Source: Epilithonimonas mollis (GTDB lineage Bacteria; Bacteroidota; Bacteroidia; Flavobacteriales; Weeksellaceae). Taken from it: 64,000 nt of DNA. The notes beneath the pieces were generated by a model. The model did not search any database. It was given only the letters and a program-made list of their open reading frames with translations, and was not told where the DNA came from. The stretch's first letter is position 1. The number at the start of each line of letters is the position of its first letter. Of this stretch, positions 14,382 through 49,386 are shown in pieces. Made by a program: the position numbers and the translations under genes. Location of the stretch: NCBI RefSeq assembly GCF_900142325.1, contig NZ_FRAM01000003.1:310001-374000 (forward strand), written 5' to 3'.

Positions 14382-16661
14382 ATGACTATGAAAAAGTACA
14401 GGAATATTATCTTTTATGTACTCACCATCGCCTTTTTCTCCTGCTTAATGTATTGGTTTTTCATCGAAGGAAAAACGTTGGAAACCGGCGAAAAAATCAT
14501 GCCCGGCAAAGCTGAAGATGCCACAATGTGGGACACCTTCTCAGCATCGTTCCTGGAAAATCTCCATCATCCCCTGGCGCTTCTTTTAGCTCAGGTTGTT
14601 ACAATAATCCTTGTGGCCAAACTGTTTGGCTGGATCTGCGTCAAGCTAAAACAACCGTCCGTCATTGGTGAAATGATCGCCGGTATCGTTCTCGGTCCAT
14701 CACTTGTAGGATTATATTTTCCGGAGTTTTCCGCCTTTATGTTTCCTAAAGAATCACTTCCGAACCTCCAGTTCCTGAGTCAGATCGGACTGATTCTTTT
14801 TATGTACATCGTCGGGATGGAGCTGGATCTTAGCGTTCTCAGAAAAAAAGCGCACGATGCTGTGGTGATCAGCCATGCCAGTATCATTTTTCCATTTGCC
14901 CTGGGCGTCGGACTTTCTTACTTCATTTATAAGGAGTTTGCACCGGACGGCATCCAGTTCAGTTCCTTTGCTTTGTTCATCGCCATTGCGATGAGCATTA
15001 CCGCTTTTCCTGTTCTGGCGAGGATCGTTCAGGAACGGAATCTTCATAAGACCAAAATCGGGACTATCGTGATCACCTGTGCAGCCGCGGATGACATCAC
15101 AGCATGGTGCATCCTTGCAGCCGTGATTGCTGTTGTAAAAGCAGGATCGTTTTCGGGTTCGATATTCGTTATCCTGATGGCGATCGTGTATGTTTTCCTG
15201 ATGATAAAACTGGTGAAACCCTTCCTGACACGCATCGCCGAGTCCCAGAAAGGAAAGGGCTTTATCAACAAAGCCCTGGTGGCAGTTTTCTTTTTAATAT
15301 TGATTATTTCGTCCTATTTAACAGAAGTTATAGGGATTCATGCACTTTTCGGCGCATTCATGGCTGGTGCGATAATGCCTGAAAATATAAAGTTCAGAAA
15401 CCTTTTTATTGAGAAGGTGGAAGATATTGCATTGGTTCTGCTGCTTCCTTTATTCTTTGTCTTCACAGGGCTGAGGACGCAAATCGGATTGCTGAATGAT
15501 CCTTATCTCTGGAAAATCGGTGGGCTAATAATCCTGACAGCAGTTATCGGAAAATTTGTCGGGAGTGCCTTGACAGCAAGGTTTCTGAAACTGAGCTGGA
15601 AGGACAGCCTCACCATCGGTGCACTGATGAATACGAGAGGTCTGACGGAGCTTATCGTCCTGAATATTGGCTATGACCTGGGCGTTCTCGGTCCCGAATT
15701 ATTTGCGATGCTGGTGATAATGGCTTTGTTCACAACCTTTATGACGGGGCCTTGTCTCGATATGATCAATTACTTCTTCCGAGGCAAAAAATCAAGCTTG
15801 GAGGAAGAAGAAAATGATGAGAAATACAAGGTTCTCCTGTCCTTCGAAACGCCAGAATCCGGAAGTACATTACTGAAGCTGGCAGACAATTTTACTAATA
15901 AGATGAACGGAAACAAAAGTGTAACAGCAATGAACATTGCACCTGTGGATGAGCTGCACACTTTTGATATAGAAGATTACGAAAAAGAACTGTTTGAAGC
16001 CGTGATCGACACGTCCCGGGAACTGAAGCTGGAAGTCACCACCCTCTTCAAAGCCTCTACCGATATAGAAAATGATCTCATAAGCATCACCAACAAAGGC
16101 AACTATGACCTGCTGCTGATTATGCTTGGAAAATCGATCTATGAAGGGACTTTGCTCGGTAAACTGCTTGGCTTCACTACCAAGATCATCAATCCGGAAA
16201 AGCTGCTGAATACCGTAAAGGGCAAATCCTATATCTTCAACACCTCCCCTTTCGATGATTTTACCTTAAGCATCCTGGACAGAACCAAAACACCTGTCGG
16301 TATCATGATGGATAAAAACTTCGAAAGTGCCGACAGGATCTTCATCCCTATTTTTGACCTGAACGACTTTTACCTGGTTGAATATGCCAAACGGCTGATC
16401 AATAACCACGATTCCCAGGTCATCATCCTGGATGCAGCCGGACAGATCCGGAAAAACACAGAAATCCGCGAACTGATAAGAAACATAGAACATATCGCCC
16501 CGAATCACATCACGCTCTATAATGAAAGAACCATTGAAAAAGACTTCCTTCTATCCCAGGATCTTATGTTGATCAGCAGCAAAAGCTGGAAAAACCTGAT
16601 TGACACCAAAAGCCTGTGGTTATCGGATATTCCATCGACTTTAATTGTCTCTAATCCGTAG
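14382..16661 (+). CDS. CPA2-family cation:proton antiporter
   Basis: The protein of about 759 residues is a KefB/NapA-like monovalent cation:proton antiporter of the inner membrane. An extra N-terminal helix (residues 5-25) precedes the twelve-helix exchanger, recognisable by KQPSVIGEMIAGIVLGPS, IGLILFMYIVGMELDL, AMSITAFPVLARI, the ion-binding CAAADDITAW and GALMNTRGLTELIVLN. A cytoplasmic C-terminal domain of about 280 residues has two USP-like halves. An ATG at 14382 is preferred over the in-frame TTG before it; the ATG at 14388 is also possible. It probably serves pH or Na/K homeostasis. Confidence 0.92.
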   Translation: MTMKKYRNIIFYVLTIAFFSCLMYWFFIEGKTLETGEKIMPGKAEDATMWDTFSASFLENLHHPLALLLAQVVTIILVAKLFGWICVKLKQPSVIGEMIAGIVLGPSLVGLYFPEFSAFMFPKESLPNLQFLSQIGLILFMYIVGMELDLSVLRKKAHDAVVISHASIIFPFALGVGLSYFIYKEFAPDGIQFSSFALFIAIAMSITAFPVLARIVQERNLHKTKIGTIVITCAAADDITAWCILAAVIAVVKAGSFSGSIFVILMAIVYVFLMIKLVKPFLTRIAESQKGKGFINKALVAVFFLILIISSYLTEVIGIHALFGAFMAGAIMPENIKFRNLFIEKVEDIALVLLLPLFFVFTGLRTQIGLLNDPYLWKIGGLIILTAVIGKFVGSALTARFLKLSWKDSLTIGALMNTRGLTELIVLNIGYDLGVLGPELFAMLVIMALFTTFMTGPCLDMINYFFRGKKSSLEEEENDEKYKVLLSFETPESGSTLLKLADNFTNKMNGNKSVTAMNIAPVDELHTFDIEDYEKELFEAVIDTSRELKLEVTTLFKASTDIENDLISITNKGNYDLLLIMLGKSIYEGTLLGKLLGFTTKIINPEKLLNTVKGKSYIFNTSPFDDFTLSILDRTKTPVGIMMDKNFESADRIFIPIFDLNDFYLVEYAKRLINNHDSQVIILDAAGQIRKNTEIRELIRNIEHIAPNHITLYNERTIEKDFLLSQDLMLISSKSWKNLIDTKSLWLSDIPSTLIVSNP

Positions 16662-16771
16662 GTATAAAAGATATACGGACAGGACATTTTTCAAATAATG
16701 AATATTGAGCAGAAAATATCCTTATTTCTAAAACATAAAAACCAATATGACAGAATTAAAAAAATAATTTC

Positions 16772-16779
16772 TATCTTCG
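16772..16779 (+). promoter_or_regulatory. Putative -7 promoter element of the tyrA leader transcript
   Basis: TATCTTCG differs in one base from the Bacteroidetes -7 consensus TAnnTTTG. It ends four bases before the GTG of the leader peptide, so the transcript may start at or next to that codon. No clear -33 TTG is visible. Confidence 0.4.
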
Positions 16780-16783
16780 TCTG

Positions 16784-16840
16784 GTGAAAACAATAAACAG
16801 AACATATTATTACGCAATTCAGACCCTGAAACAGGATTAG
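16784..16840 (+). CDS. Tyrosine-rich leader peptide of tyrA (TyrA attenuator)
   Basis: A GTG opens an 18-codon frame reading VKTINRTYYYAIQTLKQD and ends at TAG (16838-16840). Three adjacent Tyr codons (TAT TAT TAC, 16805-16813) sit in its middle. The gene downstream is prephenate dehydrogenase, the committed step to tyrosine, and a rho-independent terminator lies between them. This is the arrangement of a classical attenuation leader: ribosomes stall at the Tyr codons when charged tRNA-Tyr is scarce. The frame has no ATG; upstream it is closed by a TAA at 16757. Confidence 0.75.
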   Translation: MKTINRTYYYAIQTLKQD

Positions 16841-16890
16841 GATTCGTATATATCAATATAAAACCTCGTCCTGATGACGGGGTTTTCTGT
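16824..16890 (+). promoter_or_regulatory. Transcription attenuator of tyrA: antiterminator and terminator
   Basis: Terminator: AACCTCGTC (16862-16870) pairs with GACGGGGTT (16876-16884), with one T-G wobble and loop CTGAT, followed by TTTCTGTTTT. Antiterminator: CAGGATTAGG (16832-16841) pairs with CCTCGTCCTG (16864-16873) as five plus three pairs around a 2x2 internal loop, consuming the left arm of the terminator. A small CCTG/CAGG hairpin (16825-16834) overlaps it. A ribosome at the leader stop codon covers 16832-16841 and leaves the terminator free; one stalled at the Tyr codons exposes this arm, allowing readthrough. Confidence 0.72.
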
Positions 16891-16917
16891 TTTAAAATTT
16901 AAATAAAATTATTATAA

Positions 16918-17763
16918 ATGAAGATAGGCATTATAGGAACCGGGCTGATTGGGGGTTCCATCGCACTGAAGCTAAAAGAAAAAAACACTGCAACGCACAT
17001 TGTCGGAATCGACCAAAATGATGACAATCTGAATAAAGCACTTAAGCTCAAGATCATTGATGAAAAAGCTGATTTCGAAACCGGAATCAGAAGCTCTGAG
17101 CTTCTTATCATCGCCATTCCCGTAGATGCTGCGAAGAAGATCTTACCTCAGATCCTGGATCTGATTAATGGAAACCAGACCGTGATGGACGTCGGCTCTA
17201 CCAAATCGGGCATTGTTGAAGCCATCCGGAATCACCCGAACAGAAAACGCTTTGTCGCCTTCCACCCTATGTGGGGAACGGAAAACTCCGGCCCGGAAGC
17301 GGCAACCAGGGACAGTTTCACGGGAAAAGCGGGTGTCATCTGTAATCAGCAGGAGTCTGACAAAGACGCTCTGGAAAAGGTAGAAAAGGTCATTGAAAAT
17401 CTGGAGATGCATCCCATCTATATGGATGCAGATGCGCACGATGTTCACACGGCTTATATCTCACATATCTCGCATATTACATCTTATGCTCTGGCCAATA
17501 CAGTCCTGGAAAAAGAACGGGAAGAGGAAACGATCTTTCAGCTGGCAAGTTCCGGTTTCTCCAGCACGGTCCGTCTGGCAAAATCCCATCCGGAAATGTG
17601 GGTTCCTATTTTCCGCCAGAACAAAGAAAATGTTCTGGATGTTCTGAATGAGCATATCTCGCAACTCAGAAAATTCAAATCGGCACTGGAAAAAGAAAAT
17701 TTTGATTACCTGGAAGAACTGATCGTCAATGCCAATAAGATCAGAGGAATTCTTGATAAGTAA
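16918..17763 (+). CDS. tyrA: Prephenate dehydrogenase
   Basis: TyrA oxidatively decarboxylates prephenate to 4-hydroxyphenylpyruvate, the precursor of tyrosine. The 281-residue protein has the NAD-binding GIIGTGLIGGSIAL at its N-terminus, VMDVGSTKSGI, the substrate site FHPMWGTENSGP (His116) and the helical dimer domain with SHISHITSYALA. It has neither a chorismate mutase nor an ACT domain, so feedback regulation must come from elsewhere; the attenuator directly upstream fits that. It is transcribed alone and faces purE. Confidence 0.94.
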   Translation: MKIGIIGTGLIGGSIALKLKEKNTATHIVGIDQNDDNLNKALKLKIIDEKADFETGIRSSELLIIAIPVDAAKKILPQILDLINGNQTVMDVGSTKSGIVEAIRNHPNRKRFVAFHPMWGTENSGPEAATRDSFTGKAGVICNQQESDKDALEKVEKVIENLEMHPIYMDADAHDVHTAYISHISHITSYALANTVLEKEREEETIFQLASSGFSSTVRLAKSHPEMWVPIFRQNKENVLDVLNEHISQLRKFKSALEKENFDYLEELIVNANKIRGILDK

Positions 17764-49181: not shown

Positions 49182-49274
49182 TTTGAAATCCAATTCAGAT
49201 TGTACGGTATTGCCTTAATCTGGTATTGTTCTCCCAACTCAAACCCGGTGAAAAGAGAGACAAATCTTCAACAT

Positions 49275-49350
49275 AGCCCCGATGGGAGCGGCATCCTTTT
49301 TTGCGTTGGACAAGCCTGGGGAAAAAAGATATAGTGGACAGCGGGTTAGA
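49275..49350 (+). repeat. REP-like intergenic hairpin element, copy 2
   Basis: The element reads AGCCCCGATGGGAGCGGCAT, then CCTTTTTT, a short loop, AAAAAAGAT and AGTGGACAGCGGGTTAG. Its T-rich and A-rich arms (about 49294-49302 and 49322-49330) pair as a stem. It lies between convergent prmC and the rhomboid gene, so it may also end transcripts. Border blocks match those at 252-378 and, inverted, at 31489-31569. Confidence 0.65.
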
Positions 49351-49386
49351 AAAGTGAAAGAAACTGAAAGCTTAACGCTCCTGAAC

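Follow-up and report, generated by a model that had tools for sequence, protein, structure and literature searches.

A probable tyrosine-responsive attenuator with a predicted leaderless leader peptide upstream of tyrA in Epilithonimonas and Chryseobacterium

Introduction

What controls tyrA, the gene for prephenate/arogenate dehydrogenase, in Epilithonimonas, and how would a ribosome enter a regulatory leader in Bacteroidota, which lack Shine-Dalgarno initiation? An original prediction, made from a 64-kb stretch of Epilithonimonas DNA (the whole stretch analyzed here, referred to as the window), placed a complete tyrosine attenuator in front of this gene. Epilithonimonas is close to Chryseobacterium, and the nearest relatives are named species of both genera. 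The prediction also held that classical Tyr attenuators are rare and that examples from Bacteroidetes are little described. This is partly right: attenuators upstream of tyrA operons, including one in Bacteroides thetaiotaomicron, were already listed as predictions in 2005 (PMC1173090), and leader-peptide attenuation has been reported in Flavobacterium psychrophilum, with structured pheA and hisG leaders (PMC9723704). A Tyr-tRNA attenuator had earlier been proposed for aroF (as cited in PMC2659441). No account of the tyrA attenuator described below was found in Rfam or in the open-access literature searched.

Results

A leader peptide and competing helices lie upstream of tyrA

In the window, tyrA is monocistronic and is followed by a purE-like gene on the minus strand. 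It is the sole PF02153 gene of the genome, which agrees with the predicted identity of the gene next to the leader (Table 1). Translation of the upstream sequence yielded the leader ORF as predicted, with three adjacent Tyr codons. Among 1121 short ORFs (8-30 aa, both strands of the 64-kb window), no other encodes YYY, and a -7-box-like octamer occupies exactly -12 to -5 in just 10, this ORF included. The folding energy of the leader was 3.4 standard deviations below that of dinucleotide shuffles, and none of 200 shuffles was equally stable.

Table 1. Features of the tyrA leader region, in window positions.
Feature	Position	Strand	Evidence
-7 promoter box TATCTTCG	16772-16779	+	5/6 match to consensus TAnnTTTG
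Predicted transcription start, first base (G) of GTG, leaderless	16784	+	Inferred from box at -12 to -5
Leader peptide ORF VKTINRTYYYAIQTLKQD	16784-16840	+	GTG start, TAG stop, 18 codons
Putative stall site, three tandem Tyr codons (TAT TAT TAC), codons 8-10	16805-16813	+	Conserved YYY
Protector hairpin 1:2, sequesters antiterminator arm	16811-16848 (arms 16811-16828, 16832-16848)	+	Folding, compensatory changes
Antiterminator 5' arm (segment 2), overlaps leader stop codon	16832-16841	+	Folding, covariation
Antiterminator 3' arm (segment 3), first seven bases also in terminator	16864-16873	+	Near-invariant CCTCGTCC
Intrinsic terminator hairpin 3:4	16860-16886 (16860-16870 with 16876-16886)	+	Folding, terminator scan; T-rich tail to 16893
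tyrA, prephenate/arogenate dehydrogenase, regulated gene	16918-17763	+	Pfam PF02153, E 7e-33

Both the antiterminator and the terminator were found where they had been predicted. In the antiterminator, 9 of 10 positions are paired, the exception being a U.C mismatch (16838/16867). The terminator scan, which returned 2 terminator-like sites against 0.2 expected, lengthened the predicted stem (16862-16870 with 16876-16884) to 11 pairs, followed by CTGTTTT; the T tract is interrupted (TTTTCTGTTTT), which counts against the attenuator. As had been proposed, the two helices share bases (16864-16870) and are mutually exclusive. Missing from the prediction was hairpin 1:2, which begins at the third Tyr codon. 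Since this hairpin sequesters the antiterminator arm, the locus holds a full three-hairpin attenuator.

The leader is conserved across genera

Eighty-one of 86 distinct tyrA upstream regions from Epilithonimonas and Chryseobacterium carry the leader (automatic counting gave 82, one of them a false positive from Cloacibacterium). At each of these 81 loci, tyrA is preceded by the same succession of box, start, Tyr codons, stop, antiterminator, and terminator, and the comparison across the two genera found the Tyr codons and both predicted helices conserved, with compensatory changes. A covariance model matched 23/23 Epilithonimonas, about 169/173 Chryseobacterium, 5/6 members of genus g10, and 2/2 of genus g32, and every strong match that was followed up sits before tyrA. 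Weak matches (below about 43 bits), in the window's own genome and in other genera, were rejected; those inspected lack a Tyr leader and are ordinary terminators.

These ordinary terminators could suggest that the hairpin upstream of tyrA, which lies about 200 nt past the stop codon of an upstream antiporter gene, is likewise just the terminator of that gene, with a short ORF beside it by chance. We regard this reading as having practically no probability: all parts are conserved and covary across about 200 genomes, the antiporter gene and the leader have a promoter box between them, no other short ORF in the 64 kb has YYY, and the conservation of the leader across genera refutes it.

In genus g10, the shared arm reads CCCTGTCC, and its partners are altered to fit (AGGACA in the antiterminator, GACAGGG in the terminator). 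In genus g32, the arm is that of the window, and a position mismatched in all 78 other leaders can, on a reading of the sequence, pair G-C. In each of the two genera the attenuator is a modified version, the shared arm or its partners having changed in concert. No attenuator was found at tyrA in four Chryseobacterium, in the tested Kaistella and Cloacibacterium, or in several other genera of the family. In Chryseobacterium echinoideorum (L051/L144), the attenuator is missing, and tyrA is preceded by an unrelated insert together with a terminator-like remnant that has degenerated. Among 24 genomes from other families of Bacteroidia (a sample rather than a census, with some loci unparsable), no tandem-Tyr leader precedes tyrA in the readable loci; at most of the other-family loci, the end of another coding gene apparently lies just before tyrA.

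The Tyr codons are kept and the competing helices covary

The leaders of the 81 loci have an [AG]TG start, 16-19 codons, tandem Tyr codons, and a TAG or TAA stop. YYY is retained at every locus with a leader except one in Epilithonimonas (L024, YYD), and the Tyr codons differ among relatives by synonymous third-position swaps (TAT/TAC). Alignment gaps inside the ORF come in multiples of three, whereas the residues flanking YYY, the start codon (GTG or ATG), and the stop codon vary. Because gaps keep the frame and YYY is kept while its flanks and the start and stop codons change, the leader is, judged by these patterns of sequence change, a translated frame selected for its Tyr codons. In one Chryseobacterium clade (L054, L063, L067, and L068), hairpin 1:2 is rebuilt from other sequence (GCACAAAA with UUUUGUGC) and YYY is kept; in one clade YYY has moved by one codon and is still present.

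Hairpin 1:2 folds in the window and in 78 leaders, with a mean energy of -10.8 kcal/mol. Its compensatory changes comprise C-G/U-A at alignment pair 44:51 and A-U/G-C/U-A at 45:50, as well as U-A/A-U/G-U; MAFFT shifts this hairpin by one column between genera, and the counts were taken after one gap had been moved into the loop. The segment 3 arm is nearly invariant while its partners vary, as a single strand with two partners explains. The antiterminator 5' arm, GGAU[U/A][A/G]GG, pairs with CCUCGUCC and occurs among relatives as GGAUUAGG, GGAUAAGG, GGAUAGGG, GGAUAGAG, and GGCUAGGA. The pair flanking the antiterminator (51:98) is G-U in 43 leaders, A-U in 22, C-G in 4, and G-C in 4; because column 98 sits in the terminator loop, this covariation supports the antiterminator alone. 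The terminator is conserved in 78 leaders; within it, one pair varies among U-G, U-A, and C-G, and another between U-A and U-G.

A structured leader with competing hairpins would also fit riboswitch-like control, that is, a terminator switch coupled to translation or worked by a protein (an RNA-binding regulator, a tyrosine riboswitch), with the Tyr codons present only by coincidence. The synonymous changes of the Tyr codons, the gaps in threes, and a stop codon that in every species falls within the antiterminator arm make this very improbable, as does the Chryseobacterium clade that moved its hairpin arms yet kept YYY. The comparable leaders that Epilithonimonas carries ahead of trpE (Trp) and hisG (His) also speak against it, and so does the Rfam 15 search: at gathering and at permissive thresholds it gave chance matches only, with no family, T-box, or riboswitch that fits the leader. 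Elsewhere in the window, positions 49271-49352 hold a Flavo-1 RNA motif (RF01705).

In folding models, the position of the ribosome decides which helix forms

To model the ribosome, its footprint, approximated in the standard way as 15 nt counted from the first base in the P site, was masked, and the remainder was folded. When the third Tyr codon occupied the A site, 82/82 leaders formed the antiterminator; when the ribosome stood at the leader stop codon, 0/82 did so, and 82/82 formed the terminator. The folding thus supports the original proposal that a ribosome at the stop codon lets the terminator form while one stalled at Tyr frees the antiterminator arm. When the sequence from the stalled ribosome to the shared arm was shuffled, the arm was paired in this way in 90 of 780 trials, compared to 75 of the 78 real leaders. 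The full-length minimum energy still prefers the terminator in 54/82 stalled leaders, so antitermination in these must be kinetic, with the antiterminator forming first. In the stalled full-length fold of the window's own leader there is no terminator. Without a ribosome and cut before arm 4, the same leader slightly prefers the antiterminator, and in this model basal termination through hairpin 1:2 alone may be leaky.

The locus thus combines tandem codons for the end product, a terminator between the leader ORF and the gene, an exclusive antiterminator, a protector hairpin, and the ribosome geometry of an attenuator. We consider it highly probable (roughly 0.9) that a ribosome-mediated, tyrosine-responsive transcription attenuator controls tyrA; this conclusion is carried by the observed anatomy, conservation, compensatory change, and folding effects of ribosome position, from which we infer stalling, termination, and the tyrosine response. 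RNA polymerase would initiate at the G of the leader GTG, and a ribosome would load on the RNA 5' end and translate the 18-codon leader. Should charged Tyr-tRNA run short, the ribosome would stall on the Tyr codons and break hairpin 1:2; segment 2, once freed, would pair with segment 3 and block the terminator, and tyrA would be transcribed. When Tyr-tRNA is plentiful, the ribosome would reach the stop codon inside segment 2 and cover this segment, so that terminator 3:4 would form. If the leader is not translated at all, hairpin 1:2 would hold segment 2, and termination would again be expected.

The leader mRNA is predicted to start at the start codon

The box TATCTTCG, which the original prediction lacked, is the sole such box within 16600-16917, and no alternative promoter was seen in the window downstream of the terminator. 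Mapped start sites of F. psychrophilum have the TAnnTTTG box at -12 to -5 (PMC9723704); applying this spacing to TATCTTCG places the predicted +1 at 16784, and the mRNA of the leader peptide is accordingly predicted to be leaderless. Between the end of the box and the start codon are 4 nt in 81/81 loci, though those four bases differ, and the spacing stays fixed while the spacer sequence, the peptide length, and the 3' spacing vary. Genus g10 has TAnnTTAG, 4 nt, and GTG; genus g32 has TAnnTTTG, 5 nt, and ATG.

The same attenuator could instead start several bases upstream, with the leader peptide translated from a short conventional 5' UTR. Flavobacterial mRNAs mostly carry a 5' leader: leaderless mRNAs make up 5.5% in F. 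psychrophilum and are few in F. johnsoniae, where 87% of mRNAs have a 5' leader of >10 nt. GTG is not known to be a favored leaderless start in E. coli, and the His leaders of Epilithonimonas begin 10-20 nt after their box. Despite these points, we consider a conventional 5' UTR unlikely, given that there is no second box in 16600-16917, that the 4-nt spacing is invariant in 81/81 loci, that g10 and g32 keep 4 and 5 nt, and that in most species the Trp leader of Epilithonimonas starts 5 nt downstream of the box.

It is somewhat more likely than not that a lineage of Bacteroidota evolved a tyrosine-specific attenuator with an obligatorily leaderless leader, usually with GUG at +1, in which loading of 70S ribosomes on the nascent 5' end replaces recognition of a ribosome site and sets the timing between ribosome and polymerase; the device is apparently tied to tyrA having turned into a stand-alone gene. 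The locus provides a clean and conserved case of tyrosine-dedicated attenuation by the ribosome, from a phylum whose attenuators have been little studied, and its leader is a candidate addition to Rfam. If the leaderless start is true, the leader would also be a natural reporter through which to follow how Bacteroidota initiate on leaderless mRNAs, often at GUG, and bacteria of the Chryseobacterium group would gain from it a tyrosine-responsive control element ready for use.

Comparison with known attenuators

The trp, his, and pheA leaders of E. coli likewise have tandem codons for the pathway product, 1:2, 2:3, and 3:4 hairpins, and a stop codon over segment 2. The tyrA leader differs from them in its Tyr codons, its monocistronic gene, its Bacteroidota promoter with a predicted start at +1, and the absence of a Shine-Dalgarno site. 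The mechanism would be classical, and the distinctive feature of the tyrA attenuator is its predicted leaderless start. Leaderless attenuators are known from Sinorhizobium meliloti trpL (PMC7298713) and Corynebacterium glutamicum ilvBNC (PMC11857589), in which the leader mRNA starts at the start codon, as is predicted for the tyrA leader; these belong to other phyla, concern other amino acids, and have other sequences, whereas the tyrA leader usually starts with GTG. For the tyrosine branch, attenuation was likewise proposed in the 2005 list (PMC1173090), including the B. thetaiotaomicron pheA operon, and for aroF; in the accessible parts of these sources the predictions concern multi-gene operons, and no leaderless Tyr-triplet leader before a stand-alone tyrA was found there. 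The pheA and hisG 5' elements of F. psychrophilum, a member of the same bacterial order for which leader-peptide attenuation was inferred, precede other genes, and the main text of PMC9723704 mentions no tyrA element.

Action in trans has been proposed for Sinorhizobium rnTrpL/peTrpL, a leaderless small transcript of the same design (PMC7298713). That the roughly 100-nt terminated leader RNA of tyrA, or its peptide, also acts in trans beyond attenuation seems to us very improbable; outside YYY the peptide sequence is free to differ from one genus to the next, and this speaks against a conserved activity of the peptide.

Other leaders and inserts

In nearly all Epilithonimonas, trpE is preceded by a Trp leader peptide (L236-L258, MKLMNNKNWWWLSNSLSGL...; in the window's genome, L242, MKLMNNKNWWWLSNSLSGLKRLSVF), which usually starts 5 nt after a TAAATTTG box and has a T-tailed hairpin downstream. 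It is probably a trp attenuator and nearly leaderless. Other Epilithonimonas (L217-L235) have His leaders before hisG, in which His codons stand four or five in a row (M(H)5..., MHHHHH); their start codon is well downstream of the box, giving a longer 5' UTR. HisG (PF01634) is present in 19 of the 23 genomes of the genus and was not found in that of the window, so histidine synthesis has likely been lost in this strain. No convincing leader was found before pheA in Epilithonimonas.

An insert of roughly 50 bp starting ATGAAACG lies between the terminator and tyrA in L006, L008, L011, and L013, and the same insert is found in L236 between the trp promoter and the trp leader. It contains a small inverted repeat and TTCCATCTG[AT]C, and ends just before an ATG start codon. 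It resembles a small repeated element placed directly upstream of start codons. Further inserts, also starting ATGAAAT, are present in L064, L051, and L151.
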